A program made the position numbers and the translations under genes. This document shows, piece by piece, positions 37,632 through 64,000 of a DNA stretch of 64,000 nucleotides. The DNA is from Rhododendron vialii (Eukaryota; Streptophyta; Magnoliopsida; Ericales; Ericaceae), in the NCBI RefSeq assembly GCF_030253575.1, contig NC_080563.1:36007001-36071000 (forward strand), given 5' to 3'. Numbering within the stretch: the stretch's first letter is position 1; every line of letters begins with the position of its first letter. The notes below the pieces were generated by a model. The model did no database searches and was not told the DNA's origin. It saw nothing but the letters and a program-made list of their open reading frames with translations.

Positions 37632-40616
<2,985 letters not shown>

Positions 40617-42124: not shown

Positions 42125-42306
42125 GGGAACCACTACCTAGTGCAGTGGATTGCCTATCACTCCCTTCCTCTCAGGAGATGGAGGTTCAAGCTCCTCCGTG
42201 GACGGTTTGAGATGAAGGTTATGGATAGTCCCAATACTCATTGTGCTAACCTAACAAATCTCGCTAACTCTCTCGCTAACTATACCGTTTTGGTCCCAAA
42301 AAAAAA
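42125..42306 (+). mobile_element. SINE-like element upstream of COX6B
   Basis: A tRNA-like head around 'ctagtgcagtggattgcc' is followed by a B-box-like GGTTCAAGCTCC and a terminal A-run at about 42299-42308. It ends about 175 bp upstream of the COX6B start codon, so it may sit within the promoter. Confidence 0.5.
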
Positions 42307-42395
42307 AGACGGGGGAAAATGACGGAGTCCAAACTTTGATTAGCCTTTGACTCTTGCCGCTCACCACTGCAGTGGGGGTCGCCGTAAAACCTAAC

Positions 42396-42434
<39 letters not shown>

Positions 42435-42482
42435 CTGTTGTTGGCCGCCTCTCCCAGCTTAAATCTTTCTCTCCTGTCATTC

Positions 42483-45184
42483 ATGGCGGAAGCCGATTCC
42501 GCAAAAACCTTAACCTTATCCGAGGTACTATACCTACATTTTTCTGTATTAATATACTCCTTCTGTACTCACTTACCAATTGGAATTTATTTATTTATGA
42601 TAAATAAAAAAGGAATTCGTTTCCGTATCTGTTCTTGTCGTATTTATTTTTATGCCCGTAGTTCATTGTTTGTAATTGTGAGTATTTCCTGCTTGTTTGA
42701 GTGCATTTCAAATTACTTCGAAATTGAGGATCAAACTTGGCTCTTCCTTTTGATCGGCTTTTACTTGAATGGATTGGGCTGCTGTAGATACGTTGATTAA
42801 TTTGAACCCGAAGAAGGCACTTAGATTTCTGGAATTTTGACAAGACATTTAACAGCCTAAAAGTTGTACATTAGGTGTTAAAACCTAATAAAAGATGTAG
42901 GAGTATTGAGATTTTAGACAATACAGAACACTTTATACACCTACAAGGAATGAGAGACATTTGAGTAATATTTGATTCAGTTTATAAGAATGCAATGTCA
43001 ATGATAGCTTTTGGTAATTTGAGGGTGTCAATTCCATTAGAGGTTGCACACAGGCCTGGTATTAGTTTATATTTGAGTTTTACACTACCTTATTCTCCTA
43101 AAAAATTCTCTCTCTGGACAGTTAGCAGCATCTCAAATAAGATACCCTCCTAATTGTGGTGGTTCGGTAAAGAAATCGAGCCAATTTGTACCGTGAAAAT
43201 TTTGTGATCATGGGGGCCAATATTTATATAGCCCTAGCTCACTCTCAAATAGCTCCACATTCTGGACGTAAACCCATTGCATTTTTAGGAGTGTTAAGTA
43301 TTAAAACGTTAAAAGTGATTCAGGTTCCTAGGAGGAATCTATAAAGGCAAGTTAACTAGTTACAGCTATGGTTGCTCCCCGTGGTTTAATTTCTGGGATC
43401 TCCCACCGTCTATGGAAGTATATGGGGTCTATCGCATTGAGATTCTGCGGAAGGTGGCTTGAATTTGGAGGTTTGTATGCTAATGGTTGAGGGGAATTTT
43501 TGTCTTTGAGGCTTGCTCATGTATTTATAGAACTGTTTTTGACAACAGACTAGGTTGTTGATCTTTTTTTCCTATATTTCTTTCTCCTATCTTGCTTTTC
43601 TATATATTCCTTGTCCTTTGAGTGTCCAGCGTATCTGGACCTTGTTTAGTTATTCAAAGTGTTACCGCTCCACTTAAATTTTGGGGAAATATGTTTCGCA
43701 ATCATGTCATATACTCCCAATTCTTTTTAATCTATCTCCTGTTTGATTAGCTCTATCTTGTGTAGGCTAACAAATGCTGTTGGGCCCCTCCCTCTGATTA
43801 ATCCGTTGGTTTAGGCAGTCCCTTTGCTTTTATTGCAAATAGCTTCTGTCTAGGTTTCTGCTTAGTTCTTATTTACATTCTTGCACGGAAAACTGCACAT
43901 TCATTAAGACTGCTCGCGCCTCCTGTATTATCTGAATTTTGCTGCTCAAATAAATACTGCCTAGTGGCTCTCGTCAATTATGTTAGGTTGTTAGAACCCA
44001 GTCCTGTGGTCTAAGATGGTGCTGATACCGACTGGCAGCTGTGGTTAGCTGACGCTAACGAGATATTTACGTTAACGAGGTCTCTTTGTCTTGGTCTAAG
44101 TTCAATCGTGTGCATGTATTGAACTTTATCTTGTACCTACCCATATACAGTGTGATAATATGAGATGACCCTGTGCCTCTCAGCACGCGCTCTTACATCT
44201 TTTCCTGTACGTTATCAGTAGTGGTTGCTCGCGGTAAAACCTTGTCTTTTGATGTTCTGAATTGCAGGAGTATATGTTGAAGGAGAAAGAAGAGAAGCTG
44301 GATATGGTTACAAAGCCTGCAGAAAAATCTGAGATGAAGAACACTGACAGTGCCACCGCTGAAGAAGTTTCCAGTTCAATAACTGATGAAACCCCTGTTG
44401 TTAGCAGTAGTAACGATGTTGACTCTGCCGCTGCTGATGAAAGCAGTGCAGAATCTAGTGCTGCAGCTGAAGAAAGCAATGAAACCACTCCTAGTGCAGG
44501 GGAGAGTGACAGTGAAGCCACAGAGGCTGCTGCTGACAATAGCAGTGGAAATGCTGAACAAGAAGACTTTAGGGATCAAGAAGGTGAAGACACACCGGAG
44601 ATTAAGGTAAGCTTGATTGAATCATAATCTTGACTCTTATCCCCTCAGTGTATTCAGTGACGGTTGCATGGATGTCTTTCATTGCTGGAAACTTTTATTA
44701 TTTTGAATATCATGAACAAGATGTACCATAAGACAACGGGTAGAATCAATGCCTTTTACAGAAGCAACTGAGAAAGGAAGGAGCCGGGTAGAACTATGGC
44801 GTACATGAATTTTTGGGTTGAGTAGTAAATAGTTTCTTGGTCTTCTGTTGGGTTGCAGTATTTGTAGTACTGAAAGTCAAGGTATCTTTTTTCTCTGAGC
44901 TTATATAAAAGACCCACTACGTACGAGTATTCTTTATTTTTATGATGGTCAAAGTGTGGGAAACGTTGCTACATAATCTCTTTATTCCCATTTCAAGTTG
45001 TCCTCCAAGTGACCTCCCTCTCCTATATGTGGAGCACTATTTTCTTCTCCAGTTCGCCTTATGTTTCTCTGTTCCTTGTGTATTTTGTTGTTATCCACCA
45101 GCTTGAGACAGCACCAGCAGATTTCCGTTTCCCAACTACAAATCAATCTAGGCATTGCTTTACCCGATACATCGAGTATCATCG
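42483..45184 (+). CDS. COX6B: Cytochrome c oxidase subunit 6b-1-like, first three exons only
   Basis: A nuclear gene for a small subunit of mitochondrial complex IV, on the intermembrane-space side. Exons are 42483-42524 (MAEADSAKTLTLSE), 44268-44606 (an acidic Ser/Glu/Ala-rich region of 113 aa) and 45102-45184 (LETAPADFRFPTTNQSRHCF to YIEYH). All borders are GT-AG. The long acidic N-terminal extension is typical of the plant COX6b-1 isoform. Exon 3 ends just after the first Cys of the twin CX9C/CX10C fold that holds the protein in its disulfide hairpin, so the other cysteines must lie downstream. No matching exon occurs between 45185 and 64000: that space holds an antisense FAR1-like fragment and a retrotransposon. 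Either intron 3 exceeds 18 kb or the gene is truncated. A (CT)n run at about 42398-42430 lies in the leader. Confidence 0.9.
42525..44267. other. COX6B intron 1
   Basis: A 1.74-kb intron without recognisable genes. T-rich with short unrelated frames. Confidence 0.6.
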
Positions 45185-45201
45185 GTGAGTCAATCGAAAT
45201 C

Positions 45202-46348
45202 CTATATACCTGAAAGTTTGTGTTTCTGAACTTGGGCACTTTCATCACTTAAGAATCCACACCCAAAAAGAGTAGTCTGCCCGTGGTGATTAACCCCTAA
45301 TATAGGTGCAAAGATCATGGCATATCGGTTTGTGTTGTATGTTGTATCAAACACCACAACGTCTCCAAAATATTGGTACGATTTTCTAGAGGTGGCATCC
45401 GCCCAAAAACAATGAGTCATCCTCCCCTCATCATCTTTCTCCATTGTATACACAAAACCTGCATTCTTTTGTTGTTCAATTTGAAAATGCTCGTACAACA
45501 TATTGGCGTCTTGTCCGGCTAACATTTTCCTCATGTCCCTTTTAAAATTATCAAGATCTTCTTGTAAAAAGCCAACATTTTGTAGACCTCCGGATTGTAA
45601 CTCAAAAATACTCATTTGTTGGCAGGTTCGCACATTTGCAGCTGATAGTTGTTCTACTAAAGCCTTTTTTGCAGCTGACACTTTACGATGAGATCGAAAT
45701 AAATGTACCCTCTTTGGAGACGCAAGAGGGTGGTTATGACCCTCGACAAATTGGGAGACAACAAATTTTCCACTTGATTGGTTTTTCACAACAGACAATT
45801 TCGCCCCACAATTCTCTCTACTATCCCCCCGACGCCGTGTAACGGGTTGACTAGTTTTGTGGACCCTCTTCACCCCTTCTTTGCAACAAACGTACTCCTT
45901 TCTAATGACTTCATAATCCCTATTCCTCTTGCTAGAACTCGCTCGCGTACCAAATCCACCTTCTTTACCATAATGGTTGTAAAATTTCCAAACATCATCT
46001 AAATTGTCAAACTCTTGGTTGATTTTTGGTATTATGTCATTCTTAACTTGAGGAGTGTGAAGTATTTGAGAAGAATTAGCAGATGATTCACACGGGATCG
46101 ATGCTAACGGTGAGAATACATTTATATCATCCAAACACTGCATTCTAGACCCCAAAAGAGAAAACAATTAAAAATCAAAAATTTCACATACAGTTAAAAA
46201 AAAAAGTCAGCATTAAAAAAAAATCAGCATTTTTTTTGCAAATCCTAATTTCTGACCGTAATTTGTGAGAGAGAGAAAGAGAGAGAGACCTTGGTTGTTG
46301 CTCGGTCAGTGGTGGAATATTGTCGGCTTCTTCTCGTACATCATCCAT
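45202..46348 (-). pseudogene. FAR1/FHY3-related gene, 5' part only
   Basis: FAR1-family proteins are transcription regulators domesticated from Mutator-like transposases. Exon 1 is 46290-46348 (MDDVREEADNIPPLTEQQP plus two bases) and exon 2 starts at 46144, with a proper GT-AG intron between. Exon 2 gives the FAR1 DNA-binding region (FDNLDDVWKFYNHYGKEGGF, CCKEGV, ENCGAKL, VEGHNHPL, a WRKY-GCM1-type zinc finger). It then gives the start of the MULE transposase domain (GRMTHCFWADATSR, VVVFDTTYNTNRYAM, NHHGQTTLFGCGFLSDES). Similarity stops there and the frame ends 13 codons later. The rest of the transposase domain and the SWIM zinc finger are absent. It lies antisense in COX6B intron 3, ending about 60 bp from the exon 3 donor. 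It is probably a truncated gene fragment; a hidden splice onward is possible but not seen. Confidence 0.8.
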
Positions 46349-46599
46349 GTACACTGGAATTTCCTCAATTTGTTACATAAATCAAAAAATTTACACAAAT
46401 CCAAAGCCTAACCCTAACATGAACGAGAGAGAGCCCCATTGTCACAAACCCTAACCCAATGTCAGACATTAGGGTTAGGGTTCTCAGAAAATCAAAACAA
46501 ATGGACCCAAAATGTTTTTACAGAAAAAAAAGCCCTAATTTCGGATGTACGAGTCAGAGAGAGAACAAGCCAAAGAGAGGGAGAGGGAGAGAAAGAGAG
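46349..46599 (-). promoter_or_regulatory. Upstream DNA of the FAR1-like fragment with telo-box hairpin
   Basis: This contains AAACCCTAACCCAATGTC followed by its imperfect inverse (about 46445-46492), built from plant telo-box motifs (AAACCCTAA), plus a GA-rich stretch at 46550-46599. It looks like the former promoter and leader of the FAR1-like gene. The retrotransposon LTR appears to start right after it. Confidence 0.45.
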
Positions 46600-48591
46600 T
46601 GTGGGCACGCGCCCCGAAAATCGCTCGATCTTGGGTTTAAAGAAAATCGGTGTGCGGCCCTCTTCGAAAAAGCGCGGCGAAACGCCTCGATTCAGAGTCG
46701 CCACTCGGGTTTTAGCGGTGGAAACACCCAAGGAACCGAACTCGAAAACGTTTGCCACGTTTGTTTGGATTTGAAAAAGGCGTAGACCAGTCCGTCGTCA
46801 CCTTCGATATCTGAGGTTCGGGAGCCAGGTCACGAGAGGGTTATGGCACCCCCACTCGCCCAATCCGGAGATCGGTCTCTACTCGGGCATTTTGTAAAAA
46901 CATTTGCATTTTTCTCTCATTTTATCATTTTTTTGACCAGTTAGGGCGGGGGAACAATTAATGGGGATGAAAGCGGTAACAGATTTCAGTTTGTATGACA
47001 AAATGTTTATGGATGATTTGATTGCAATGCTAAGTATAGATTGAGAACAAGCACTGAACAACCCGAGCAAACTGCAGTATGCTTGTCGCAAAGTGACGTG
47101 AGCAGATTCTGTCAGCATGCACTGGTCGAGCCACTACATGGAGATCAGATCTGCGCACGCCACCTATAAACTGGCGTACTCCACTTGTTTGATTCCTCAG
47201 TCCTTGTTTGCAACCCTCTGGGCTCTGGAAAAGGACCAGCGCACACCCAGGGCAAACCACGCAGTTTAATATAGCAGAATATACATAACCATAGGCAGAA
47301 TAAATGGCTTTTGGCCATGAAAGAAAGCAGAACACCCCAAAACAGTGTGGGGACGGAAAACAAGCCTAGATTAAACTTAGATGCAAGGGCCAGCCACTGA
47401 ACCCTGAGGCACACTGTCGTACGCCAGTTCATGAACGCCGTACGCCACTTTGCCTTTGATTTCTGTGTTTGGCTTTGCATCCTCTGGGCTCTGGAACATG
47501 ACCAGAAGGATCCCAGGGGCCTTTATATTGACATAAATGAACAAGTATGGGACGCTTCCACTAAACAGTTCTAAATACAAAAAGCAGTAAGCTGATTATT
47601 AGGATGCAAAGGTGATTGACAGGAATGAAACTAAGTAAAAGGGACGATCCATGATCCCCACGCCAGTATTGCACGTGCTACCATAACTGGCGTACGACAC
47701 ATAATGACTGGCGTGCGCCATGTGTCACTTCAAACGACTACTGTATTTTATCAGTTTAAGGCCAGGACTAGTATTATCTACTAGCCTGGGCCTTATTGAC
47801 CCCCCTCAGGAGTTGAAAACAGAAAAGAACTCAAAGGTGGTATACTTCTTCTTATGGAGGTTTGAAGGTGGCTTTGGACTTTGGAGGTTGAAGATGAAGG
47901 CTGAGATGATGACTGAATGGTGGTGGGGTGTATGGAAGTGGGTTGCTCTCCTTGCTCTTTCAATGGAGGAAGAGAGATGGAGAACTTAAAGGAATGAGAG
48001 AGAGAGAGAATACCCTTCTTAAATGTGGCTAACCCCTTGCAAATGAATGCAAGGGGGGCATTTATAGAGGAGGGAGACTGAGATTAGTTAAGGCCAAAGG
48101 GCTGTTTGGCTGGTGGGAAGAGGAGGAGAGCCTTCCATGCATTAAATGCATGGGACTAGGCTTGATGGGGGATGTAGGAGAGAGAGGGAACGCCCCCGCC
48201 GAAAGCAATCATCAGGGATACTGTGGCCGACGTCAGGGTGGCACAAAAGTCCCGCCCAAGTGGCTGAATAAAGTTGATTTGACTAGGTTTTACTGGCGTG
48301 CGCCACTTATTAACTGGCGTGCGCCAGTGAATGCTGGGCCGATGGTCGATGACTGACACGTGGCAGATTACTGGCGTACGCCTCCAAGGCACTGGCGTAT
48401 GCCCGTTGGGTTTTGCTGGGGCCGTTTGGCTCTGGTTTGAAGGGCTTGAAAATGGGTTTAAAAGGGGTTTGGGACGCTCAAGGCTTTAAACACACCTTTG
48501 TCCTCGATCTGTTTTCGACTATAATCATCATTGGGGAAGCAAAAGATCAACAAATAATGTTATCTGGACAGTCCAGAATGGGGTGTCTACA
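46600..48591 (-). repeat. 3' LTR of the Tat-type element
   Basis: The right edge is firm: on the minus strand AAAGGGGGGCTTC (polypurine tract) is followed by TGTAGACACCCC, a usual LTR start. The left edge is inferred: TGTGGGCACGCGCCCC at 46600 resembles the LTR start read on the other strand, so the LTR would end CA there, length 1992 bp. The five bases GAGAG at 46595-46599 would be the target duplication. The LTR holds several GGCGTACGCC-type palindromes and a diverged internal duplication. Its plus strand has 'gagtcgccactcgggtttt' and 'gggttatggcacccccac', which I recall from other plant Gypsy LTRs. Confidence 0.65.
48061..48066 (-). promoter_or_regulatory. TATA box of the LTR promoter
   Basis: The minus strand reads CTCTATAAATG about 525 bp into the LTR. 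It is the best TATA match of the LTR and would place U3 at roughly 48591-48035, with a long R-U5 of about 1.4 kb. Confidence 0.4.
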
Positions 48592-48604
48592 GAAGCCCCC
48601 CTTT
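48592..48604 (-). other. Polypurine tract (plus-strand primer site)
   Basis: AAAGGGGGGCTTC on the minus strand lies immediately before the LTR start TGTAGACACC. In LTR retrotransposons the RNase-H-resistant polypurine tract at this place primes plus-strand DNA synthesis. Confidence 0.75.
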
Positions 48605-48720
48605 GACGGCACTTGAAGCACCATTGACTGGAGACAAGTAACGTCAAAGGTTTTCTAGACACCCTCTTCAAGGCTATCCAGAATGCGTGAAATTTTGAAG
48701 AACCTGTAGATTTTGAGATT

Positions 48721-49265
48721 GGACGGATAGATCGTCGTTGATTTGAAATTGGACGGATAGATCGTCGTTGAATTGAATTTGGACGGATAGATCGTCGTTG
48801 ATTTGAAGTTGGACGGATAGATCGTCGTTGATTTGAATTTGGACGGATAGATCGTCGTTGATTTGAAATTGGACGAGTGGATCGTCGTTGAATTGAAATT
48901 GGACGGATAGATCGTCGTTGATTTGAATTTGGACGGATAGATCGTCGTTGAATTGAAATTGGACGAATAGATCGTCGTTGATTTGAGTTTGGACGGATAG
49001 ATCGTCGTTGAATTGAAATTGGACGGATAGATCGTCGTTGATTTGAATTTGGACGGATAGATCGTCGTTGAATTGAAATTGGACGGATAGATCGTCGTTG
49101 ATTTGAATTTGGACGGATAGATCGTCGTTGATTAGAAATTGGACGAGTGGATCGTCGTTGATTTGAAATTGGACGGATAGATCGTCGTTGATTTGAATTT
49201 GGACGGATAGATCGTCGTTGATTTGAATTTGGACGAGTGGATCGTCGTTGATTTGAATTTGGACG
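48721..49265. repeat. 30-bp satellite array, about 18 units
   Basis: The unit 'ggacggatagatcgtcgttg' plus a 10-bp variable end (atttgaattt, aattgaaatt or atttgaaatt) repeats without length change. The two main ends alternate over much of the array, giving a 60-bp dimer. Some units carry 'ggacgagtgg' or 'ggacgaatag'. Because 30 is a multiple of 3, the minus strand stays open (48674-49345) and would encode repeated decapeptides like NDDLSVQIQI. The array lies between the antisense genes and the polypurine tract. Confidence 0.95.
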
Positions 49266-49602: not shown

Positions 49603-52600
49603 ATGGCGGAGCCCAGCGAAGGTGGTGGCAATGGTGGTGCCGGAGAAGGAAGGGACCAACCACGGAGTGAAATCGAGGCTTCGGGGCCTCGGATCGACGA
49701 TCAAACGTCAGAGGAGGCATTACGTGGTACTGGTGCAGAGGTTTCGGGCGGTGCAGGTGGCGGTGATGGCCATGCAGGAGAGACAGGCGACGGCGACAGG
49801 CGGCGTACGCCAGCGGCGGTGGGGCGTATGCCAGGCGTCGTCGAATCAGGGGGACCACGGGTTCGTCGTTTGGATGCCAGGAGTGGTGTAGAAGGTCTAG
49901 TGATCACTGGGTCGGGCTTGATTGAGGCCAGCGGCAGCGGCACTGGCAGCCGTGGTGGTGGTGATGAGGGTGGTCGACCGGAGACTCCAACGAGGGATCC
50001 GGCGCGGGGTAAGGCTCCCGTGGTGGAGGAGGGTGCATCCGGAGAGGTACCCATGGAGGAGGTGGAGTTTAGGCCAGCAGCCGGGTCTTCGGCACACATC
50101 CCCATCACTCGGGGGGATTTTGCGGAGTTTGTGTCCGAAGAGGAACTCGGTCGGTTGCTCCGGGAGAACCCGGGGGTGGTAGCTGCAGTGTTGGCCGCGC
50201 GGGAGGACCGGGCCCGGCAGGTTGAGAGGGCGCAGGAGGAGGAGCGCCTGAGAGAGGAGGCCGAGAGGGCCAGGGCCGAGGAGGAGGCCTTTGAGAGCGA
50301 GACCGAGGCTGCCGAAGAGGCTCAGGGGGAGGTGTGGTCCTTTGAGCGAGCGGTGACGCTCGCGGAGTCCATACGGCTGGCACCCCGTGGTCAGTTTGAC
50401 GCTGCCTCGTACGCTCCGCCCGAGCCGCACGTTTTCATACCGTCCGGGGTCGAGAGCCTGGCACCTTTGAGGGAGAGCTATGACGCTGAGTTGATTCTGA
50501 GGGACCCACAGAGGCACTTGTCAGTGGACTGGGCACAGGTATCCTTTTGAACTTGCCTTAACATTTCAATGCTTTGCCATTTGTACCGATATGCAATTTG
50601 AACTGTAGTAGCTTGACTTGTAATGCATGTAGGCTAGAGCCTTGATCTGTAATGTGACTGAGAAAGTAGAACCTTGAATAGCATGCTTCGACCTTGAAAC
50701 TTGACTTGAATGATAGAACACTGGATGTAGTTGAATCGACTTGTAGGATGCCCGTGACTTCGAAAAACGGTTAGTGTCAAACTCGAATCCACATTACGTG
50801 GCCTTGACACGATAGGGTTGTCCTCTGAACTTGCACTCGACTAGGTACATTGCCATGACATGTTGAACGCCCGGATGGCGTGCCCCGTAATTTGTATCGA
50901 CCATATTGATAAGCTGAACACTTGTGCAATCGACTGAGAGATGTGCCCTGAGAGAAAAGAGGCCCTGTAGCTCGGAACTTGACTGAAAAATACCTTTGAT
51001 TTGATTCGACTGATAACAGAACTGAATGGTATAGTACGAGTGCCCTGGCAGCTTTGCTCGACCTTTATGATGCTCATTTCGACTGTAGAGTTACTTTTCG
51101 ATATTCTGAATTCGACCAACTGTTTGGATTGCCATTGCTGACGAAACTCTTTCTGCTGTCTGTCTTGTTGTGCAGAGGGGAGCAGCCAGCACCCGTGGCC
51201 ATGGTGGTCTAGCGAGTTCGCTCGAGCTATACAAGAGTTTGCCCGAGCGGGTCAGGGCTCTGGTTGACGTGGCAGGGTTCCGGTCATTTATCCTTACACT
51301 GACGCCCATAAAGAGTGACCACGCTCTGTTGACGGCGCTGGCCGAGAGGTGGTGGGATTCTTCGAACACCTTCCACTTGCCGATTGGAGAGATGACGGTG
51401 ACTCCGTCGGACTTCGCAGCGCTCACCGGTCTGAGGGTAGGAGGAGAGCCTATTCCGTTCGACTCAGAGATGTACAGGGATCCTGAGGCTCTGGCATGGT
51501 TTCTGGGGCAGGCGCCGGCAGGTGAGGCGGAGACTGTCCATTATGACCAATTCAAGCGGTACTTGCACGGGAGGGAGCCTGAGTCGGACTTGGAGGCGGA
51601 GAAGATGGCGAGGGCCTACTTGCTGTACTTGTTCAGGGCTACATTGTACCCGAACAAGCGATCCACGGTGCACCTGTCCTACTTGCCGGCTCTCTATGAC
51701 TTGAGCACAGCCTCGAGGTTCGACTGGGGAGGAGCAGCTCTGGGTACCTGCTATGGCTTCATGGGGGCTTTTTCGCGTGGAAAGAAAGCGACTGCCGGCT
51801 ACTGGAGGGTGTGGGAGGTAAGAAACAAGGCCCGTCATTTACTTACCGCTCTTCCATTCATTGCACTTGTACTTTGATTTGCATATAAGCTGTATTCTGA
51901 TGTTTTGATTGTTTGACCATTCGCAGCTATGGGCCTACGAGGTGCTGAAGATGTACCCTCCGGAGAACAAGTGCCCGAACTTGAGGATGCTCCCCCGCGC
52001 CATGATTTGGGGTCCTATGTACAGCGGGAAGAAGAAGTCAAGAGGGAGCCTCCTAGCCTTTCGGACCTACCTCGACGAGCTGTCTGGCACTCAGGTATGC
52101 AACATGTCAAACTGAGTATTCTGCCCTTAGAATTGCTTTAATGCTGTCGCTGATACTTTACAAACTGTGCCATTGCCTTGCAGGTGGATTGGAACCCCTG
52201 GAGCGGCGCTGAGCCCGAGCCTGAGTACTTAGCACAGAGCAGGGTGGTGACTGCGAGCCGGGTGCTGTTGGAGTCGGCCTTCGGGTGGCGGTGGTACCTG
52301 GGCGACCGGGTGACACGGCAGTCACTAGGCACTCTTGACTTCCAGGTTCCAGGGCCACTGCCTCCTCACGCCTCCCATACGGACAAGTATACCCTGGCTG
52401 AGCTGAGGCGCTTCACCGTTCCGACTGGGCTGGCTGCTTTTCTGAGGCCTGAGCGCGACTACGCTGTATACCGGAGGTAGCACTTGGCGAGGCCGCTTGG
52501 AGTCTTGGAGCATGTCGCCGTGCAGAGCGAGGCGTTGGAGGCTGGTGAGGAGAGGCGGAGCCGGGAGAGCAGGGCAGCTCGCCCGAGAGAGAGGAGCGAC

Positions 52601-53429
52601 TACGCTACAGCGACCGGGCTGCCTCGGCTTTCTTGGACCCTAGCAGTGCGGGACGCCAAAGGAGAAGAGGCCATTGTTCAGTTTGAGCCTGCTAGGACAG
52701 ACCCGGCAGAGATCGTAGGACCGGTAAGACATTCCTTATCCCTTTTGTAGTTTCTGTACTTTACTTTCAGCATGTATACTTGGCATTTGATTCTGACTTT
52801 ACCCGATAATTGAATTGCAGGCCCCGATGGAATGGGTGCGGGAGGCGGCTCGACTGATAAAGGCCATGGAGAAAGAGTTCCACAAGATAGCTGGCGGCGC
52901 CTCCTTGCAGTTGCAGTACCCACCTCCAGCTCCGGCTCCCGCTGAGCAGCCTCAGGTATAACTCTTCATTTTGCTTTTGAATACGGCTGCTTTTGAACTT
53001 TCCTGCACTTTGCATTTCAATATATACAATATGTACAATGTATGCTAAATGACTTGAATGACCATGCAGGGACATGCTAGGGCGGCTCATAGGAGGAAGA
53101 GCGTGCGGCCTCCTCCAGCAAAGAAGGCAGCTTCGAGCTCCTCACAACCAGCAGCCAGGGTGGAACGGGCAGCACAGACCACTCCGGCCAGCGAGGGGCT
53201 CCAGTTCCGCCGAGAGCTGAGGAAGAGGCCGGCAGAGAAGAAGCTTGCTGAGGGACCCTCGCAGAAGAAGAGGAGAGAGGAGGAGGAAGCAGAGGAAGAA
53301 GAAGAAGAGGAGGAGACATCCCTCAGCAGTGGCTCTGACTCAGCGAGCGACCCCAGGTTCCGCATAGACCCTCGAGAGGTAGAGGACAGCGAGGAGGACG
53401 ACGACGAGGAGGACCTTTTTGACGACTGA
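49603..53429 (+). CDS. Antisense plant-mobile-domain (PMD) gene carried by the retrotransposon
   Basis: Six exons are readable: 49603-50538, 51176-51817, 51927-52094, 52184-52723, 52821-52955 and 53070-53429. All have GT-AG introns and all are phase 0, giving about 926 codons. Exon 1 encodes a Gly/Ala-rich start and a charged coiled-coil-like stretch rich in RAEEE and EERLREEAERAR. Exons 2-4 hold the PMD-like region: VDVAGFRSFILTL, LLTALAERWWDSSNTFHLP, GEMTVTPSDFAALTGLRVGG, YLLYLFRATLYPNKRSTV. Exon 6 encodes basic patches (RRKSVRPPPAKK, KKRRE) and a long Glu/Asp tail. Exon 4 contains an in-frame TAG at 52478-52480 with the frame staying open after it, so this copy is probably a fresh pseudogene or ends there. 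The function of PMD proteins in transposons is unknown; a cellular relative, MAIN, acts in genome maintenance and silencing. Confidence 0.8.
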
Positions 53430-54634
53430 GGGCTATCACCGAGCCTTAGTCTATTTTGCCAGCACTTTGATACTTTTGATACTTTTGGAGTTGATACTTT
53501 GGTACTTGGATACTTTGGATGGGGCCTGCGTGCCTCTTTGACCTTTGGGCGAGTGTGCCCTGCTACATTTAGTTCTGCCCGGGCCGTTGTGCCGTTTGAT
53601 ATCCGATACATTCCCACCGTTACGTTTTTGACACAGTAGTATATAACATATGCACTTTATGTTTATCGTTTTGCTTTTGCTTTGATGAGTTTTGACAAAA
53701 GAAAAGGATAAATCCTCCACTAATATCCCACATGCATTGACACACGTTCTGAATCGACAAAAGACACTCACACATATACAAAATCAACTCAGCTCGAAGA
53801 AAAGATGGATAGAAACGTCCTAGGATACGACACGTATCCCAGACACGCGGGGGATACGGGCATTTTAGGCGTTGGCAAGCCAAAATCCGTCATTTACCCC
53901 GGGGAAAGAAACTGACCCTTTTGAAAGGTGACATAGATGCATAATGACTTGCGCGAACTTCAAAAACCGATAGAAATGCCCCGGTGCAAGGGAAATACCA
54001 AAAAAAACTAAAAATGCCATAAAAATGGGCATAAGACGCCAAAAACGACTCGATATAGTCCCGGACTGAAACCAACACCCCCACACAGTCCCATAAGTCC
54101 TATGTGACTTGTGTGGCATGACAAAACTTGGCAAATGCCCTTGAAACGAGATTTGACCTCTCGTATCCTTGATTTTAGCTCGACACGGGCCACCGAGGGT
54201 CCGAAATCTTTATCGGGCGTGGCTTTTGGAATCCGACGCTTGGCCATAGTCTTAAATGACATTTGTGACTTGTAGGAACCAACAAACGGCCAAAGCCAGC
54301 CCCGGAATTGAAAACGACCACACGGAGGCAGTAGCTGCTGCAGACTGGTTTCTGGTGAAACCTACTGGCGTACGCCAGAAGTTGAGGGCAGTACGCCAGT
54401 AGGTGGGGACACGGACACGCCAGTTATTAACTGGCGTACGCCAGGTTCCTGAGTGCCAGATCCACTTGACTGACCAATTGTCCTTTTTCAGGGGCCACTT
54501 TGTTTTTACCCCCACACGGTTTGCACACGGTTTCTGGGTTCTCAGGAGGCAGTGTCCTTTGCAGGAGCATGGTTTGGAGGCTAGCATGAGGCTTTGGATG
54601 CCTCATTGGTGGAAACTTTGCAAAGGGCAAGGCC
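53430..54634. other. Spacer between the two antisense genes
   Basis: No coding sequence was supported. It contains the cluster of GGCGTACGCC-type palindromes at 54362-54450. It likely holds the 3' UTR of the first antisense gene and the promoter of the second. Short minus-strand frames here match nothing. Confidence 0.55.
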
Positions 54635-54640
54635 TATAAA
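54635..54640 (+). promoter_or_regulatory. TATA box of the second antisense gene
   Basis: TATAAA within GGCCTATAAAGTAGAGGCC. A start of transcription about 30 bp downstream would exclude the first ATG at 54655 and leave 54712 as the first usable start codon. Confidence 0.55.
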
Positions 54641-54711
54641 GTAGAGGCCTTGCAATGGTTTTACAGAGTGCATTGCTTCCCCTTTTCTCCAGTATACTGC
54701 TACATTCCTTC

Positions 54712-55968
54712 ATGGACAACCCTCTCCCAACTTTACTTAGGCCATGGTTGGCGCAATTTCTAAGTGTCGACTGGCTCAACTTCCAATACCACGGCCTTGC
54801 CTCGTTCCGCTTCCTTCGGCATGTGCCACTCCGCCCGGCGCTCTTGCGGGCTGCCCTTAGATTCTGGGATCCTGACGTCCACGTCTTCCGTTTCGGTGAT
54901 GACGAGCTGTGCCCGACTGTCGAGGAATTTCAGGCGTATCTCCGGACCTACTCGTCCTCTACACTCGTTGTCCCGCCATACCAGGCGAGCATGCCCAAAT
55001 TGCTGGCCAACTCGCTCGACATCTCTCGGGGTTTGGCAAGCGCTATCCTTGAGGGCGGCCAAATGAATGTCATGCGCCTGATTGAAATGTACAGTCCGGA
55101 CGGTGACCTGGATAACAGCGAAGTGCAAGCGCGCCGCCGTTTTGCCTTGGTAATCTGCCTGCTTGCCGCTTTTCTGCTTGTGCCGGCTCATGGGCAGGCT
55201 AGCCCGTCACTTGTGAGCGTTGCTGCCCAGATGGGGGCACGGAGGAATGTGATCCCTTTGGTCTTGGCGGAGACACTCTTAGGCTTGGACCTGGTGTATA
55301 CGGGCCAGTCGGCCGTTTTCAGTGGCAGCCCGCTTTTGCTTCAGGTAATCTCACTCAGCTCACCTTTTTCTGGCTATTCGCACGTTCTCCTTTTACCTCG
55401 ACACTCGGCTTAGGCTGCTTCCTAGCTCCTCACTTGTCTTTTCCCTCAGGCTTTATCTGGTTTCTTACTTGTCTTTTCGCTCATGCAGTTGTGGCTGTCG
55501 GACAAGCTGAACCTCTTGCACCCTCCGATAGCGGGTTGGAATCTCTTTCCGAAGAGGATCCATCAAAGGGAAATGCGGTATCCGGACATGGACATAGAAG
55601 GCTGGTATGAGTTCATGCAGCAAATGCAGCCTGATGAGATCGCTTGGAGGTGCCCTTGGCTGAACCTTCCGGATATGGCTGTTTCCTTCGATGGATTCGA
55701 CAGGATGGTGATTGCTGGGCTGTCGAGCTTCACTTTCTACATTCCCGGCCGCGTCCTTCGACAGCTGGGTGCCTCTCAAGAAAACCACCGTGTCAGCATT
55801 GGTGATTTCCGTGTCCCGAATTTCAACGCTCAAACACTCAACGGTTATCAGAGGCGCTGGGGCCTTAGAGCCCTCCAGGCTGAGATGCCGGAGTTCACCA
55901 CAGGGCTAAGGAATCGCTACAGACAGTGGCTGAGAGCAGATGTGAATGCAAGAGAAAATATTAACTGA
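54712..55968 (+). CDS. Second antisense PMD-like gene of the retrotransposon
   Basis: Two exons, 54712-55344 and 55489-55968, are joined in phase 0 by a GT-AG intron, giving 370 aa. Domain-like core: LRAALRFWDPDVHVFRFGDD, ELCPTVEEFQAYL, RRFALVICLLAAFLLVP and LAETLLGLDLVYTGQ, then ALWLSDKL-like 'LWLSDKLNLLHPP', CPWLNLPDM, and YQRRWGLRAL near the end. This pattern (FW-DP-D-x-FRFGDDELCPTVEEF) resembles the PMD of the neighbouring gene and the plant DUF7745-type proteins as I remember them. The frame is intact. AATAAA signals follow at 55994 and 56103. The start at 54712 is chosen from the TATA position; an upstream in-frame ATG at 54655 is less likely. Its role in the element is unknown. Confidence 0.75.
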
Positions 55969-56509
55969 CTCCGGGCCACTTTGCTATGCTTAGAATAAAC
56001 TGTGAGCCGTTAGGCTTCCTAAGCATTTTGTCCTGTTTTTCATGCTTCAACTGTTTTTTAAGGCTTTTATGCTCAGCTTATGTATTAGAAGTAGTAATTT
56101 ACAATAAAGTTGAAAGATGATAGGTTTCCCCCTTCTGACCCACTTCAATGCATCCTTGACTCGAGCTCGACCTTCCCAAACTGTGACGTGTGCCCAGAAT
56201 GCCAAACCTGGATCGAACTCTTGATGGAATGTGACCGAATCTCGAGGTGAGATTGCCTACGTATCCCTTTTCAAGGAATCAGGTCAGAACGTAGTTCAGG
56301 CTAAGGTTCGCTCGTGTATTTTACCTCTCCTTTTACGCTCTAACTTTTGCCTAGCGCCGCCTTTTCAGGTTTTCGGCCTAGCGAGCTTTCGACTTGTGCC
56401 TATTTATTTTTTGCCTAGAACCGCCTCCTTAGGTTTTCGGTCTAGCAGGCTGCTCTAACTTTTGCTTGGAATCGCCCACCCTTGTGGTTTTCGACCCAAC
56501 GAGCATCTC
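55969..56509. other. Spacer between antisense gene and pol 3' end
   Basis: This holds two AATAAA sites for the plus-strand gene. It also has the block 'gattgcctacgtatccc' to 'acgtagttcagg' (about 56248-56302), and three degenerate units around 'gcctagaaccgcct' and 'aggttttcgg.ctagc' (about 56350-56505). The block and the units look like conserved non-coding parts of Tat-type elements. Confidence 0.55.
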
Positions 56510-59500
56510 TCAGGGATAGTAACGCTTAAGTTGATCCAGGTTGACCAGGGTGCTGAATTCGTTGCCATCGAGGTCAATAAGCTTAGCAGCGCCCCCGAAT
56601 AGGATGGTCTTGATAATGTAAGGCCCGGATCGCTTCGGCCTGAATTTCCCGCGAGGATCGAACACTAGAGCCCAGATCTCCTTTGTAACCATGTCTCCTT
56701 CGACTAAGCCCCTGGACTTCACTTTCTTGTTGAACGCCCGAGCAATTCGACGCTGATACCCCTGAACATGATACAAGGCCCGGAGCCGTCTTTCATCGAA
56801 CAACATTAGCTCGACAAACCTTCCACTCAACCATTCAGATTCTTCGAGACCGCTTTCGACCATGATTCTCAGTGACGGTATCTCCAGCTCGATGGGAAGT
56901 ACTGCCTCCATCCCATAGACTAAGGAGAAAGGAGTTGCACCCGTTGACGTGCGGATGGACGTCCGATACCCCCAAAGGGCGAGAGGTAGCTGCTCGTGCC
57001 AATCCCTTGTAGACTCGGCAGTCTTCTTGATGATCATCTCGACATTCTTGTTCGCAGCTTCGACCGCTCCATTTGTTTGCGGGCGATAGGTCGTTGAGTG
57101 ATGGATCTCGATACCGAATTCCTCGAAGAGCTCTAAAACCCTTCCTTTGAAATGACTTCCGTTATCTGATACAAATGCCTGAGGAACCCCGTACCGGTAG
57201 ATGATATTCTTTCGAATGAACTGAGCAACCTGGACCGTTGTTAGTGTCTTGTAAGATTCAGCTTCGACCCACTTAGTGAAGTAGTCTATCGCTACCAGTA
57301 TGAACTTGTGACCATTCGAAGCAGACGGCCTGATCATCCTAATAACATCGATGCCCCAGACAGAGAAAGGCCATGGCGAGGTCATGCCATATAGCTTAGA
57401 TGGAGGGACATGCTGTAGGTTCGCATGGATTTGACACTTGTAGCAGCGCCGCACGTAGTCGATGCATTGTGATTCCATTGTAGACCAGAAGTAACCCTGC
57501 CTGAGGATCTTTCTAGCAAGCATGACGCCGCTCATGTGAGGCCCGCAGACTCCTTCGTGAATCTCCTCCATTATTCTCGTTGCTTCGACGCCGCTGACAC
57601 AGAGCTTGTGCATCCCGCAGTGAGACCTTCGATACAGCTTCCCCCCGCAGATGATGTATTGAGAAGCTAACCTTTGCAAAGCAATCCGATCCTTCTTCGT
57701 GGCCTCAGTAGGAAATTCCCCGCGCTCCACAAAGTTCCAAATGTCATGGTACCATGGTAGGCCATCATCGACATCATCAATGGCGTTGATATACTCATAA
57801 GCAGGCAAGTCCCTCTGTTCAATCACAATCGGCCGCATCTTGACGCCTATTGGAAGTTCGATCATTGAAGCCAAAGTCGCCAAAGCATCGGCGAACTGAT
57901 TCTTCAAGCGTGGGACATGGGTGAAAGTCACCTTATTGAAGCGAGGAATCAGTTCTTCCAAGTCTTGGTGATAAGGCTTCAGTTTTTCCTCACGAACCTT
58001 CCAATCTCCATTGGCCTGGGAAACCACCAAGTTCGAATCCCCAATTACTTCTAACTTCTCGACGCCTAAGGCAATAGCAGCTTCCATTCCGACGATGCAA
58101 GCTTCGTACTCAGCTTGATTGTTGGTGACATCGAAATTCAGCTTGAAAGCGAGCGGAATGTGAGCGCCGGCGGGCGTGATTAGCAACACTCCGATCCCAA
58201 ATCCCTTCTGGTTAGCAGCCCCATCAAAATAGAGCGTCCATACTTCCTCGGCCACCGTTAGGACCTCCTCGTCGGGGAAAGTAAAATCCACATCTTCCGG
58301 GCCGTCGATCGGGTGATCGGCCAGAAATTTGGCCACAGCTCGTCCCTTTATAGACTTCCTCGTGACATGTTGGAGTTCGAACTCAGCCAGCAGAAGCAAC
58401 CAACGTGCTAGCTTATGGGTGAGCGCAGGCTTCTCGAACAGGTACTTGATAGGATCCATCCGAGAAATCAGTCTCACCGAATAGGCTAGCATGTAGTGTC
58501 TAATCTTTCTGGTAGCCCAAACTAGCGCCCAACATGTCTTCTCGAGAGGGGTGTAACGCTCCTCGGATCCTACCATCTTCTTGCTCAGATAGTAAACGGC
58601 TTTCTCGACCCCATTGCTTCCTTCCTGTGCTAGCAAGCATCCCATGGCTGTTGAAGAAACGGACAGATAGAGAATCAAAGGTCGACCCGGCGTAGGTGGC
58701 ATCAGAACCGGCGGGTTCTGCAAGTACCCCTGAATAGACTCGAAGGCGGCTTGACATTTATCTGTCCATTCGAACGGGACCCCCTTTTTGAGTAGACGGA
58801 ACAACGGTTCGCAGGTGAGAGTTAGCTTGGCGATGAATCTGCTGATAAACTGGACCTTTCCTAAAAAACTTCGCACGCCCTTTTCAGACTTTGGCGGCTC
58901 CATCTCGAGGATTGCCTTGATTTTGGAAGGATCCACTTCAATTCCCCTTGCGGTGATCAGAAATCCCAACATTTTTCCTGACGTGACCCCGAACGTGCAC
59001 TTTTGCGGATTCAGGCGTACATTGTACTTGCGAAGCCTTTCAAGAAACTGCCTGAGCGAGGGGAGATAGTCCTTTTCCTCCTTTGCCTTTACAATCATGT
59101 CATCGACGTAGATCTCAACAGTTTTGTGGATAAAATCATGAAACAGGGTCGTCTGAGCCCGTTGGAAAGTGCATCCGGCGTTCTTCAACCCAAACGTTAT
59201 CTTCACGTAGCAGTAAGTTCCCCATTCCGTGACGAACGTCGTTTTCTCTTGGTCCTTGGGCGCCACAGAGATCTGGTTGTATCCGGAGAATCCGTCGACA
59301 AAAGAGAGCAAGGCATGCCCCGCCGTGTTGTCCACAAGCACGTCAATGTGAGGCAAGGGAAAACAATCTTTGGGGCTTGCTTTGTTTAAGTCCCTAAAGT
59401 CGACGCAGACTCGGATCTTTCCATCCTTCTTGGGAACAGGCACGATGTTGGCCACCCATTTGGGGTATTCTGCAACCCTGATGAATCCTGCGTCAATCTG

Positions 59501-61699
59501 CTTTGTAACCTCTTCCTTGATCTTCTGAACCCAATCCGGCCTCATCCTGCGGAGTTTCTGTTTGACGGGGACAGCCCCGGGCTCCAACGGGATTCGGTGT
59601 TGTACTATTTCAGGATCAATGCCGGGCATATCCTTGTGAGACCATGCAAAAACCTCGGGAAATTCTTTGAGGAGCTTGATTGTTCCGGCGTGGTTTTCCG
59701 GAGACAGATTTGCACCGATTTGCATCATACGGGGGTCATCCTTGTCTTTCAGATTTACACAAATTACTTCTTCTTTTAGAGGCTGAGCACGCCTTTCGTC
59801 TTCCTTTTCGATGAGGGAACGCAACTCAGCCGGGATGTCCCCGTCGAAGTCTGTTCCTTCATCGTCAGGGTCGACACAGTTTATATAGAAGCTAGCAAAG
59901 TAGTCAGAAGTAGGATCATGCATTTCATAAAACCCAACAGGGTTGCCAAGTACAACAGACTCGAACTCGAAGTAAAAGCTACGACGTGGAGGGCCAAGAG
60001 GCATAAACTCCGACTCTGAGCTAGACTTAGACTCGACAGACTCTGTGTCAGATTCAGACTCGTCGTCAATGCATGTTAGACGCGGAGTAAAAATGCAGTT
60101 ATTAATACTTCCCTGCGCCTTGACTATGAGAGAGGTGGGATCCTCGGGAGCATTTGATGAGTCGGGCCCAAGCATCAGCACTTCAGCTTCCTCGCCCTTG
60201 CCAACCAAACCTACTTGGGAGAACAGCATCCCCAGACCCCCTTGATCAAAAGTCCTCAGCCAGTCAAACTCTTCCTTGGTCCGACCCAGCTGTTTCTCGA
60301 ACTCTTTCCGAGCAAGCTTCTCTTCAGCTGTCTCTTCCTCACCGTCGGACCAGGTGTCCGTAGCAAAGATCTCGAATCCCGGCAGCCAGGTAGAAGTCTC
60401 CGGATCCCAAAACGGCTCTATCTGTCTCGAATAAGCAAGGCCTCCTCCTTCTCGCACAAAGTAGCTATCGGGGTTACCAAAAAGGGTTCGAGGCTTTCCC
60501 GTGTCTTTCCTCCTTTTGGCATCTTTGGTCGGTGGAGTGTAACCTAGGCCAAAGCGGCCTTCGGTGGAAGGAAAGACAGGGAACTCAGCAATCCCTTGTT
60601 GGTTGATCCCGAGTCCTAGGCCAGGCATGAATGACATTTTCCTCATCATTTCGAGGACGGTTGAGCTTATGGTGAAATCGTCATCCATGGCAATGGCGAG
60701 GACTGAGCCAGACGTGTCGAAAGAGAATCCTCCAAAGTCCGAGTCTTCCTCCCCGTGCATGATGCCCAAGACAGGCGTTCCATCATCTGTGAGCGGGCGG
60801 ATTCCAGAATCCCCGCAAATTGTCAAGGTACCAGTAGGCAGCCCCAGCATGACCTTTTGATGAAGAGTTGAAGGCACCGCCATAATGTCGGCCCTATGCA
60901 GCCATGGCCTGCCCAGCAGCAGGTTGAAAGTAGCAGGGACATCGACCACATGAAACTCAACGTCCATCTCAAAGCCCTCAGCGTCAAGCTTCAGCATTAG
61001 AGTTCCCTCCACTGTACGGCGAGTACTGTCGTACGCCTTGACGGCCAAATTGGAAGGTGTTAGGTCACTCTTGGCGAGCCCCAAGCGGTAGGCAACCCTC
61101 ATCGGGCAGACATTGATAGCAGAGCCATTGTCGATCAGCACGGTTGGCACCCAATGTCCTCGGCACTTGACGGTGATGTGGAGCGGGCGGTTATGAGCAG
61201 TTCCCTCGACAGGCAGATCCTTCTCGGTGAACGTGACAGAGTGCTTAGAGAGGAGTGGCAGCACCAAGGCAATCATGGCCTCGGGGGTGATGTCAATTGG
61301 TACTGTAAGCCGGGCCAAAGCAGAGGACAGCTTCTCACGATGCTCCTTTGATGACGATATCAGACCCCAAATAGACACAGCGGCCGGAATCCTTTCAAGC
61401 TGCTTCAGAATGGCGTCTTCTTCGGGGACTCCATTTAGAAAGAGCGGGTCGGCCCTTTGAGCAGTGGGAGCGGCGGTCTTCTGAGCAGGCGGATTGGACG
61501 AGCTTCCAGCCTGAAGGTTGGCTGGCTGAAACACTCGGCCACTCCTAGTGACGTTGGCCACATCCCACCAAGACGATGTGTCAATGGAATCCCACAGGTC
61601 GGCGGGCACTTCCTCCAACTTACGCTTTCCTTTGTCGGTTGCTGCCACCGTTGCAGACGAGTCTGTCTCCAAAGCAGTGTCCCAGTCCAAATCCTCCAT
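56510..61699 (-). CDS. Pol polyprotein: protease, RT, two RNases H, integrase
   Basis: 1729 aa, uninterrupted. Residues 1-100 are acidic with WD motifs. A retropepsin-like domain has LIDNGSAINVCP (D190) and LLGRPWLH. A glycine-rich G-patch-like segment follows at about 350-390 (MPGLGLGINQQGIAEF). Reverse transcriptase has YVDD at 864-867 and a SPKDCFPLPHID segment. The first RNase H starts near 1010, but its first catalytic Asp appears replaced (LYLSVSS). An archaeal-type RNase H starts with LYFDGA (D1159) and has NNQAEYEA and GDSNLV. Integrase has a CYKCQ zinc finger, D1451 (GIDVI), D1512 (SDNGSHF) and E1547 (NGAVEAANK), then a C-terminal SGPYII motif. The second RNase H marks the Tat lineage. 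The true start is uncertain, because the frame is separated from gag by a TAG 12 bases upstream of this ATG. Confidence 0.95.
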   Translation of the reverse strand: MEDLDWDTALETDSSATVAATDKGKRKLEEVPADLWDSIDTSSWWDVANVTRSGRVFQPANLQAGSSSNPPAQKTAAPTAQRADPLFLNGVPEEDAILKQLERIPAAVSIWGLISSSKEHREKLSSALARLTVPIDITPEAMIALVLPLLSKHSVTFTEKDLPVEGTAHNRPLHITVKCRGHWVPTVLIDNGSAINVCPMRVAYRLGLAKSDLTPSNLAVKAYDSTRRTVEGTLMLKLDAEGFEMDVEFHVVDVPATFNLLLGRPWLHRADIMAVPSTLHQKVMLGLPTGTLTICGDSGIRPLTDDGTPVLGIMHGEEDSDFGGFSFDTSGSVLAIAMDDDFTISSTVLEMMRKMSFMPGLGLGINQQGIAEFPVFPSTEGRFGLGYTPPTKDAKRRKDTGKPRTLFGNPDSYFVREGGGLAYSRQIEPFWDPETSTWLPGFEIFATDTWSDGEEETAEEKLARKEFEKQLGRTKEEFDWLRTFDQGGLGMLFSQVGLVGKGEEAEVLMLGPDSSNAPEDPTSLIVKAQGSINNCIFTPRLTCIDDESESDTESVESKSSSESEFMPLGPPRRSFYFEFESVVLGNPVGFYEMHDPTSDYFASFYINCVDPDDEGTDFDGDIPAELRSLIEKEDERRAQPLKEEVICVNLKDKDDPRMMQIGANLSPENHAGTIKLLKEFPEVFAWSHKDMPGIDPEIVQHRIPLEPGAVPVKQKLRRMRPDWVQKIKEEVTKQIDAGFIRVAEYPKWVANIVPVPKKDGKIRVCVDFRDLNKASPKDCFPLPHIDVLVDNTAGHALLSFVDGFSGYNQISVAPKDQEKTTFVTEWGTYCYVKITFGLKNAGCTFQRAQTTLFHDFIHKTVEIYVDDMIVKAKEEKDYLPSLRQFLERLRKYNVRLNPQKCTFGVTSGKMLGFLITARGIEVDPSKIKAILEMEPPKSEKGVRSFLGKVQFISRFIAKLTLTCEPLFRLLKKGVPFEWTDKCQAAFESIQGYLQNPPVLMPPTPGRPLILYLSVSSTAMGCLLAQEGSNGVEKAVYYLSKKMVGSEERYTPLEKTCWALVWATRKIRHYMLAYSVRLISRMDPIKYLFEKPALTHKLARWLLLLAEFELQHVTRKSIKGRAVAKFLADHPIDGPEDVDFTFPDEEVLTVAEEVWTLYFDGAANQKGFGIGVLLITPAGAHIPLAFKLNFDVTNNQAEYEACIVGMEAAIALGVEKLEVIGDSNLVVSQANGDWKVREEKLKPYHQDLEELIPRFNKVTFTHVPRLKNQFADALATLASMIELPIGVKMRPIVIEQRDLPAYEYINAIDDVDDGLPWYHDIWNFVERGEFPTEATKKDRIALQRLASQYIICGGKLYRRSHCGMHKLCVSGVEATRIMEEIHEGVCGPHMSGVMLARKILRQGYFWSTMESQCIDYVRRCYKCQIHANLQHVPPSKLYGMTSPWPFSVWGIDVIRMIRPSASNGHKFILVAIDYFTKWVEAESYKTLTTVQVAQFIRKNIIYRYGVPQAFVSDNGSHFKGRVLELFEEFGIEIHHSTTYRPQTNGAVEAANKNVEMIIKKTAESTRDWHEQLPLALWGYRTSIRTSTGATPFSLVYGMEAVLPIELEIPSLRIMVESGLEESEWLSGRFVELMLFDERRLRALYHVQGYQRRIARAFNKKVKSRGLVEGDMVTKEIWALVFDPRGKFRPKRSGPYIIKTILFGGAAKLIDLDGNEFSTLVNLDQLKRYYP

Positions 61700-61711
61700 T
61701 ACTAGCCCTTC

Positions 61712-63914: not shown

Positions 63915-64000
63915 TTTAACACGCTTTGGAGATGCTGGTGGAGACGGAGAAGACGGAGGAGATTCGTGTGGAGTAGTCGGCGGCGAATCCTCCCGCGACA

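Follow-up and report, generated by a model that had tools for sequence, protein, structure and literature searches.

Likely retention of introns through antisense placement of two plant mobile domain-related genes in a young Rhododendron vialii retrotransposon

Introduction

How can an element that is copied through RNA carry genes with introns? The question is raised by a stretch of 64,000 nucleotides from Rhododendron vialii (NC_080563.1, positions 36,007,001 to 36,071,000; hereafter the window), in which a 20.8-kb Ty3/gypsy long terminal repeat (LTR) retrotransposon holds two multi-exon genes, designated A and B, between pol and its 3' LTR. An RNA-copied element is expected to lose its introns, yet six are kept here, both in the loci examined and in a divergent second family. 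We consider it likely that the element is a young Tat/Ogre retrotransposon, that its two antisense genes go back to a single plant mobile domain (PMD) gene that had introns, and that the introns have been kept because of the antisense placement of the genes. Such an arrangement suggests a way in which genes of ordinary, cellular style could persist in an element copied through RNA.

Structure of genes A and B

Both genes lie on the plus strand, antisense to gag-pol, and are enclosed by the LTRs. Their features are listed below together with their state in other copies. The genome (532.6 Mb in 13 contigs) contains at least 150 matches to gene A exon 2 and at least 150 to gene B exon 1, from which the best-scoring 29 other A loci and 23 other B loci (from L013-L066) were aligned; these are not a random sample. 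Ka/Ks denotes the ratio of nonsynonymous to synonymous divergence, and column numbers refer to a MAFFT alignment of A, B, the single-locus PMD gene L074 (whose next match in the genome is 49% identical) and twelve relatives.

49603 to 50538, plus strand: gene A exon 1; median Ka/Ks 0.188
50539 to 51175, plus strand: gene A intron 1; GT..AG in 27/29 other loci, the two misses overlapping one another
51176 to 51817, plus strand: gene A exon 2, in which the PMD begins; this exon by itself scores 95.9 bits to PMD; length constant in 29/29
51818 to 51926, plus strand: gene A intron 2; GT..AG in 29/29; column 661, shared with the intron of gene B and with one of L074
51927 to 52094, plus strand: gene A exon 3; median Ka/Ks 0.012
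52095 to 52183, plus strand: gene A intron 3; GT..AG in 29/29; column 721, as the second L074 intron
52184 to 52723, plus strand: gene A exon 4, in which the PMD ends; of 28 covering loci, one has an in-frame deletion of 18 bases
52478 to 52480, plus strand: in-frame stop in gene A exon 4 of the window copy; codon stop-free in 29/29 other loci
52724 to 52820, plus strand: gene A intron 4; GT..AG in 26/28 covering loci
52821 to 52955, plus strand: gene A exon 5; median Ka/Ks 0.147
52956 to 53069, plus strand: gene A intron 5; GT..AG in 28/28 covering loci
53070 to 53429, plus strand: gene A exon 6; C-terminal tail basic, then acidic, as read from the sequence
54635 to 54640, plus strand: TATA box of gene B (TATAAA), 77 bases before the ATG; kept in 24/24 aligned B loci, window included
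54712 to 55344, plus strand: gene B exon 1; length constant in 23/23 others; median Ka/Ks 0.055
55345 to 55488, plus strand: gene B intron; GT..AG in 22/23 others, one donor deleted
55489 to 55968, plus strand: gene B exon 2 with stop codon; 1-2 base deletions in 3/23

GT-AG borders and phase 0 are common to all six introns. Read on in frame from the preceding exon, they contain 2 to 15 stops each, and their GC content is 0.33-0.47 versus 0.53-0.65 for the exons. Against a loss of intron 1, the longest open frame around gene A exon 2 among 150 matches is 322 amino acids, compared with 526 if exons 1 and 2 were joined. An annotated R. vialii protein matches spliced gene A letter for letter from residue 151 to the stop; another annotation has thus placed the three junctions of exons 1-4 where they are placed here. 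The annotated protein carries the name of a host gene (protein MAINTENANCE OF MERISTEMS-like), which serves as a warning for annotation. Because of the stop in exon 4, the window copy of gene A would yield only 680 of ~926 residues.

Up to this stop, gene A matches the PMD profile (PF10536) with 132.8 bits over residues 353-641, against a cut-off of 34.9, and the match crosses splice junctions. Spliced gene B likewise matches DUF7745 (PF24924) across its splice junction, with 45.0 bits over residues 37-362 against a cut-off of 26, while its PMD score of 30.9 bits (E 2.1e-7) falls below the cut-off. By this test, gene B is related to PMD but is not a member of it. Searches against solved structures gave no match for gene A up to the stop or for the gene B alignment, and the structure predicted for a relative of B (P0001, 59% identical to B; 19 sequences) is mostly helical but too weak for use (mean pLDDT 66.2, pTM 0.67). 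The DUF7745 profile has 87 matches over the genome, which are mostly short and were set aside.

An earlier note on this DNA had described a six-exon A and a two-exon B with GT-AG, phase-0 introns on the strand opposite to gag-pol. That description stands, except that the in-frame stop in gene A had been overlooked. The same note called both genes PMD-like and proposed a profile check of their proteins against PMD and DUF7745. Similarity is indeed present, although the PMD label suits B only in a weak sense, DUF7745 being the family whose cut-off B passes.

Conservation of the pair in other copies

The exons and introns of the aligned loci behave quite differently in length. Gene A exons 2 and 3 and gene B exon 1 are invariant, gene A exons 4 and 5 change once each among 28 covering loci, and gene B exon 2 changes in 3/23, whereas the introns of both genes vary often. 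Gene A exons 1 and 6 also vary often, which is partly an edge effect, as the ends of the fetched loci cut them. The ATG of gene B is kept in 24/24 aligned B loci (window included), just as its TATAAA is, in agreement with the promoter previously suggested for this gene.

At codon positions 1/2/3, gene A has diverged by 7.4/6.4/25.4% and gene B by 7.0/4.1/27.8% (28 A rows and 24 B rows, window row included, two overlapping A loci excluded), a pattern that speaks against chance. The excluded loci, L036 and L037, were also dropped from the Ka/Ks and stop counts and retained in the splice-site counts; they are a single locus (G000:C6:10028442-10032906) with an ~820-base tandem duplication around gene A exon 2. 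Median Ka/Ks is 0.122 for gene A (27 loci) and 0.062 for gene B (23 loci), with Ks of 0.5-0.7, which is near saturation, and with the window copy in every pair, which makes the pairs non-independent. On these values, both proteins are under strong purifying selection. Premature stops occur in 14/27 other A loci and 12/23 other B loci, indicating that many copies have decayed, and we read the overall pattern as selection in the replicating lineage followed by decay after insertion. Much of the excess divergence at third positions (window 49603-55968 versus L013-L066) consists of transitions; our guess is that this excess stems from decay of methylated C in the GC-rich exons.

Selection upon the proteins also bears on a different account of the pair, in which the useful product would be antisense RNA, acting as double-stranded RNA or by interference with the genomic RNA. 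Vicient and Casacuberta raise such a role for antisense ORFs (open reading frames) in general (PMC7264820). Here it seems improbable, as Ka/Ks of 0.06-0.12 and the near-constant lengths of the core exons show selection on protein sequence.

The pair is also fixed in its position. In 21/23 other B loci, the tail of gene A lies on one side and the end of pol on the other; thus, the pair is not a late unrelated insertion.

A second family and relatives in other species

Thirty-nine PMD matches in the genome end at profile position 239-241 and contain 3 to 6 internal stops. One of these was examined, and we infer that the remaining 38 belong to the same second family. In this divergent family 2, locus L073 and its neighbour L077 contain both genes, with the end of pol on the opposite strand. 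The five introns of its gene A are GT-AG and occupy corresponding sites (introns 2 and 3 were placed by the motifs that flank them, the other three by eye), and the intron of its gene B is likewise where family 1 has it. Exon 6 of gene A is interrupted by an in-frame stop in this copy, its gene B intron reads through without a stop, and there is no TATAAA upstream of its gene B where family 1 has one.

Linkage to pol, both in family 1 and in this second family, is the evidence that decides against the view that host genes entered a single copy of the element late and independently, for which the host-gene name given to gene A by one annotation might be cited. We regard such an insertion as so improbable that it can be discarded. 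A comparison with other copies had been proposed in the earlier note; it found the genes present and linked.

Relatives occur beyond R. vialii as well. Rhododendron molle has nine A/B pairs of annotated proteins whose locus tags are at most two steps apart, such as Rhmol09G0055100/Rhmol09G0055200, assuming that locus tags follow gene order, and Vaccinium darrowii has relatives of both genes. One annotated R. vialii gene model (P0067) matches both A and B and fuses the pair, while an R. molle protein (P0002) apparently has two B domains in a row.

Introns shared with a single-copy PMD gene

In the MAFFT alignment, column 661 is the common position of gene A intron 2, the intron of gene B, and one L074 intron, and column 721 that of gene A intron 3 and the second L074 intron; all are in phase 0. 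By a rough estimate, the chance of the B intron falling exactly on either of the two A introns within ~300 columns is ~1%, and that of both L074 introns doing so is far less. L074 was chosen, together with L075 and L076, for its split PMD matches. Of the two introns, L075 and L076 have the second alone; at the first site they read through, as do L001, L002, and L007, and L005 gave no match to the motif used. From this distribution, the shared introns go far back in the history of PMD genes without being present in all of them.

A direct profile comparison of A and B is not significant (E 0.42, Probab 0.14) and their alignment is weak; their homology thus rests upon the PMD profile matches of both and upon the intron column. 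The shared intron columns and phase make it probable that A, B, and part of the genic PMDs go back to a single gene that already had introns, and they support the earlier suggestion that the two genes arose by duplication from one ancestor.

The shared sites provide a handle on the order in which element PMDs and genic PMDs arose, even though by themselves they give no direction. The element genes might be the older ones, with genic PMDs such as L074 domesticated from the element, introns included, and antisense placement would allow an element to keep introns in that case too. Spliceosomal introns are the norm for cellular genes and the exception among retroelements, however, which speaks against this direction, and capture of a gene with introns requires fewer steps. 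Plant LTR elements, moreover, are described as generally lacking introns (PMC12786077). Ikeda et al. tend to favour domestication while calling PMD ancestry fully open (PMC5418596). On balance, we view domestication from the element as a real possibility, but not the one that we would choose.

How the introns could survive

Among the aligned loci (29 A and 23 B), no intron loss was found. When spliced gene B was compared with the genome, none of the matches listed, among 222, runs >16 residues past the exon junction. The idea put forward earlier, that antisense introns survive the replication cycle, agrees with these data. According to the mechanism that we consider likely, the genomic RNA for reverse transcription would start from the 5' LTR and follow the minus strand; the introns in this RNA read CT..AC and would therefore go unrecognised, remain unspliced, and be copied in each cycle. 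A separate plus-strand RNA from internal promoters would likely be spliced and translated into A and B. For Penelope elements, it has similarly been proposed that introns could survive since the antisense template is not spliced (PMC3846280).

The proposal presupposes that the introns are real. They might instead be decayed coding sequence or in-frame spacers, a view for which the stop-free gene B intron of family 2 could be cited. Against it, GT-AG is retained at nearly all sites, the introns change length while gene A exons 2-5 and gene B exon 1 almost never do, the domain matches continue only after splicing, and sites are shared with the single-copy gene L074. We therefore consider it very unlikely that the introns are spurious.

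Several observations weigh against the reading of a Tat/Ogre element with antisense genes from one intron-bearing PMD ancestor. Splicing is inferred from sequence. The window copy of gene A is itself broken by its in-frame stop, and a large share of the other copies have decayed, as described above. The Ka/Ks pairs are non-independent with Ks near saturation, and third codon positions are 25-28% diverged versus 9-17% for introns, which simple intron neutrality does not explain. The direct A-B comparison is not significant, and five other PMD loci (L075, L076, L001, L002, and L007) lack the first shared intron. Even with these points taken together, we still hold the reading to be likely.

Structure, age, and class of the element

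The element spans 46600 to window coordinate 67382, with its 5' LTR beyond the window, and its remaining parts are as follows.

46595 to 46599, no strand: probable target-site duplication GAGAG; partner at window coordinate 67383-67387, outside the window
46600 to 48591, minus strand: 3' LTR with TG..CA ends, a direct repeat; the 5' LTR is at window coordinate 65391-67382 (L009:1391-3382)
48700 to 49265, no strand: array of a 30-base repeat between the 3' LTR and gene A
56510 to 61711, minus strand: pol, with reverse transcriptase, RNase H, archaeal-type RNase H, and integrase (RVT_1, RT_RNaseH, RVT_3, rve) in one ORF
62562 to 63998, minus strand: gag ORF, extending past the window end; PF03732 with 32.9 bits

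A self-comparison of the window plus 30 kb past its end yielded a 1994-base direct repeat (46600-48593 and 65391-67384), in which the LTR pair has 19 differences per 1994 bases (99% identical; Kimura two-parameter distance 0.0096). With substitution rates of 1.3e-8 or 7e-9, the LTR age is ~0.37 or 0.69 million years, respectively. The left flank of the element is GA-rich, and the GAGAG duplication may accordingly be a chance match. The start of gag lies beyond 63998. With regard to the intron between the GAG-PROT and RT ORFs that is listed among Ogre traits, gag and pol are in separate frames here.

As in Tat elements, RVT_3, which was taken as the archaeal-type RNase H, sits between RT_RNaseH and rve; this placement of an archaeal RNase H is described as the mark of Ogre and Retand (PMC6317226). 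The PMD of gene A, well above its cut-off, is an Ogre feature, PMD (PF10536) being frequent rather than universal there, as it occurs in the extra coding sequence of 57% of Ogre elements (PMC6317226). Transposase_28 (PF04195), which is found in the Retand antisense ORF, had no match at E 0.001 in gene A up to the stop or in gene B, and Retand membership was rejected on the basis of these scanned pieces. The 30-base repeat array beside the 3' LTR has counterparts in about half of the recent Retand elements (PMC11963269). Judged by these features, the element is a young Ty3/gypsy LTR retrotransposon, probably of Tat/Ogre type, belonging to a family of ~150 or more copies.

A candidate primer binding site begins with TGG, one base inside the 5' LTR. 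It may resemble tRNA-Arg, the primer tRNA expected of Ogre elements. Two pattern scans for the primer tRNA returned 1 and 299 places, and no tRNA was recognised at the 7 genomic loci holding the primer-binding motif. The 299 places in the genome contain GTTCGATCCCCAGYRGAGTCG and probably serve related elements as primer binding sites; some of these GTTCGATCCCCAGYRGAGTCG places lie 12-15 kb from PMD matches with internal stops and, compared by eye, have a matching orientation.

Comparison with known elements and possible functions

Both PMDs in Ogre/Gypsy elements and antisense accessory genes are already published. PMD-containing extra ORFs in Ogre elements were reportedly described by Steinbauerova et al. 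in 2011. Neumann et al. (2019) describe Ogre as a large Tat element with an archaeal RNase H and a PF10536 coding sequence downstream of pol, much like the present element (PMC6317226). Their survey, however, scored uninterrupted ORFs of at least 250 codons, whereas here there are two multi-exon genes of the PMD superfamily that share introns with a single-copy gene; surveys of this kind would catch multi-exon antisense genes only in part. Ikeda et al. (2017) related the element-borne PMDs of PMD-A Gypsy clades to genic PMD-B/PMD-C such as MAIN and MAIL1, and it is the PMD cut-off that gene A passes; the word intron is absent from their main text (PMC5418596). The antisense genes of Retand-type elements (Grande gene23, TRP28 ORFs) belong to the Transposase_28 family and, in the descriptions consulted, are ORFs without introns (PMC11963269, PMC7264820), unlike the intron-bearing PMD/DUF7745 genes found here. 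A look at antisense spliced transcripts was called for in the 2020 review by Vicient and Casacuberta (PMC7264820). A parallel in logic is Penelope, which dispersed an intron-bearing gene whose introns could survive through the same antisense-template principle (Arkhipova et al. 2013, PMC3846280), except that the present case concerns an LTR retrotransposon in which the genes are fixed parts of the element. The literature searched contained no intron-bearing antisense PMD genes, no A+B pair, and no introns shared with genic PMDs, nor any mention of DUF7745, and the likeliest earlier source is the 2011 study by Steinbauerova et al. Provisionally, we regard the intron-bearing antisense PMD pair and its shared introns as new.

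With regard to function, MAIN and MAIL1 are interacting PMD proteins that silence transposons (PMC7156037), and one review suggests that element PMDs may serve in counter-silencing (PMC8616336). For the Grande antisense gene, a review cites its own promoter and a nuclear protein (PMC7264820). By analogy, A and B could perhaps be nuclear accessory proteins that affect host silencing, possibly as mimics or competitors of the MAIN-MAIL1 pair, a suggestion that we offer tentatively. A more elaborate scenario, in which Ogre-type elements captured an intron-bearing cellular PMD gene in reverse, duplicated it into A and B, and kept both with their ancestral introns from then on, with the pair forming a two-part MAIN-MAIL1 mimic that weakens silencing, seems to us rather unlikely as a whole. 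If it were true, antisense placement would be a general route by which LTR retrotransposons gain and keep multi-exon genes, in contrast to the rule of intronless retrocopies.

Neighbouring features

The non-coding spacer between gene B and pol (55969-56509) is the least diverged non-coding stretch (7.5%), below the introns and the A-B gap, and possibly holds a shared 3' end or other signal. Left of the element, an ORF with FAR1 and MULE domains lies at 45202-46167. The region 37486-45243 recurs in direct order at window coordinate 71608-80181 (L009-L010) in pieces that are 93-97% identical, and the element sits between these two arms of a local duplication.

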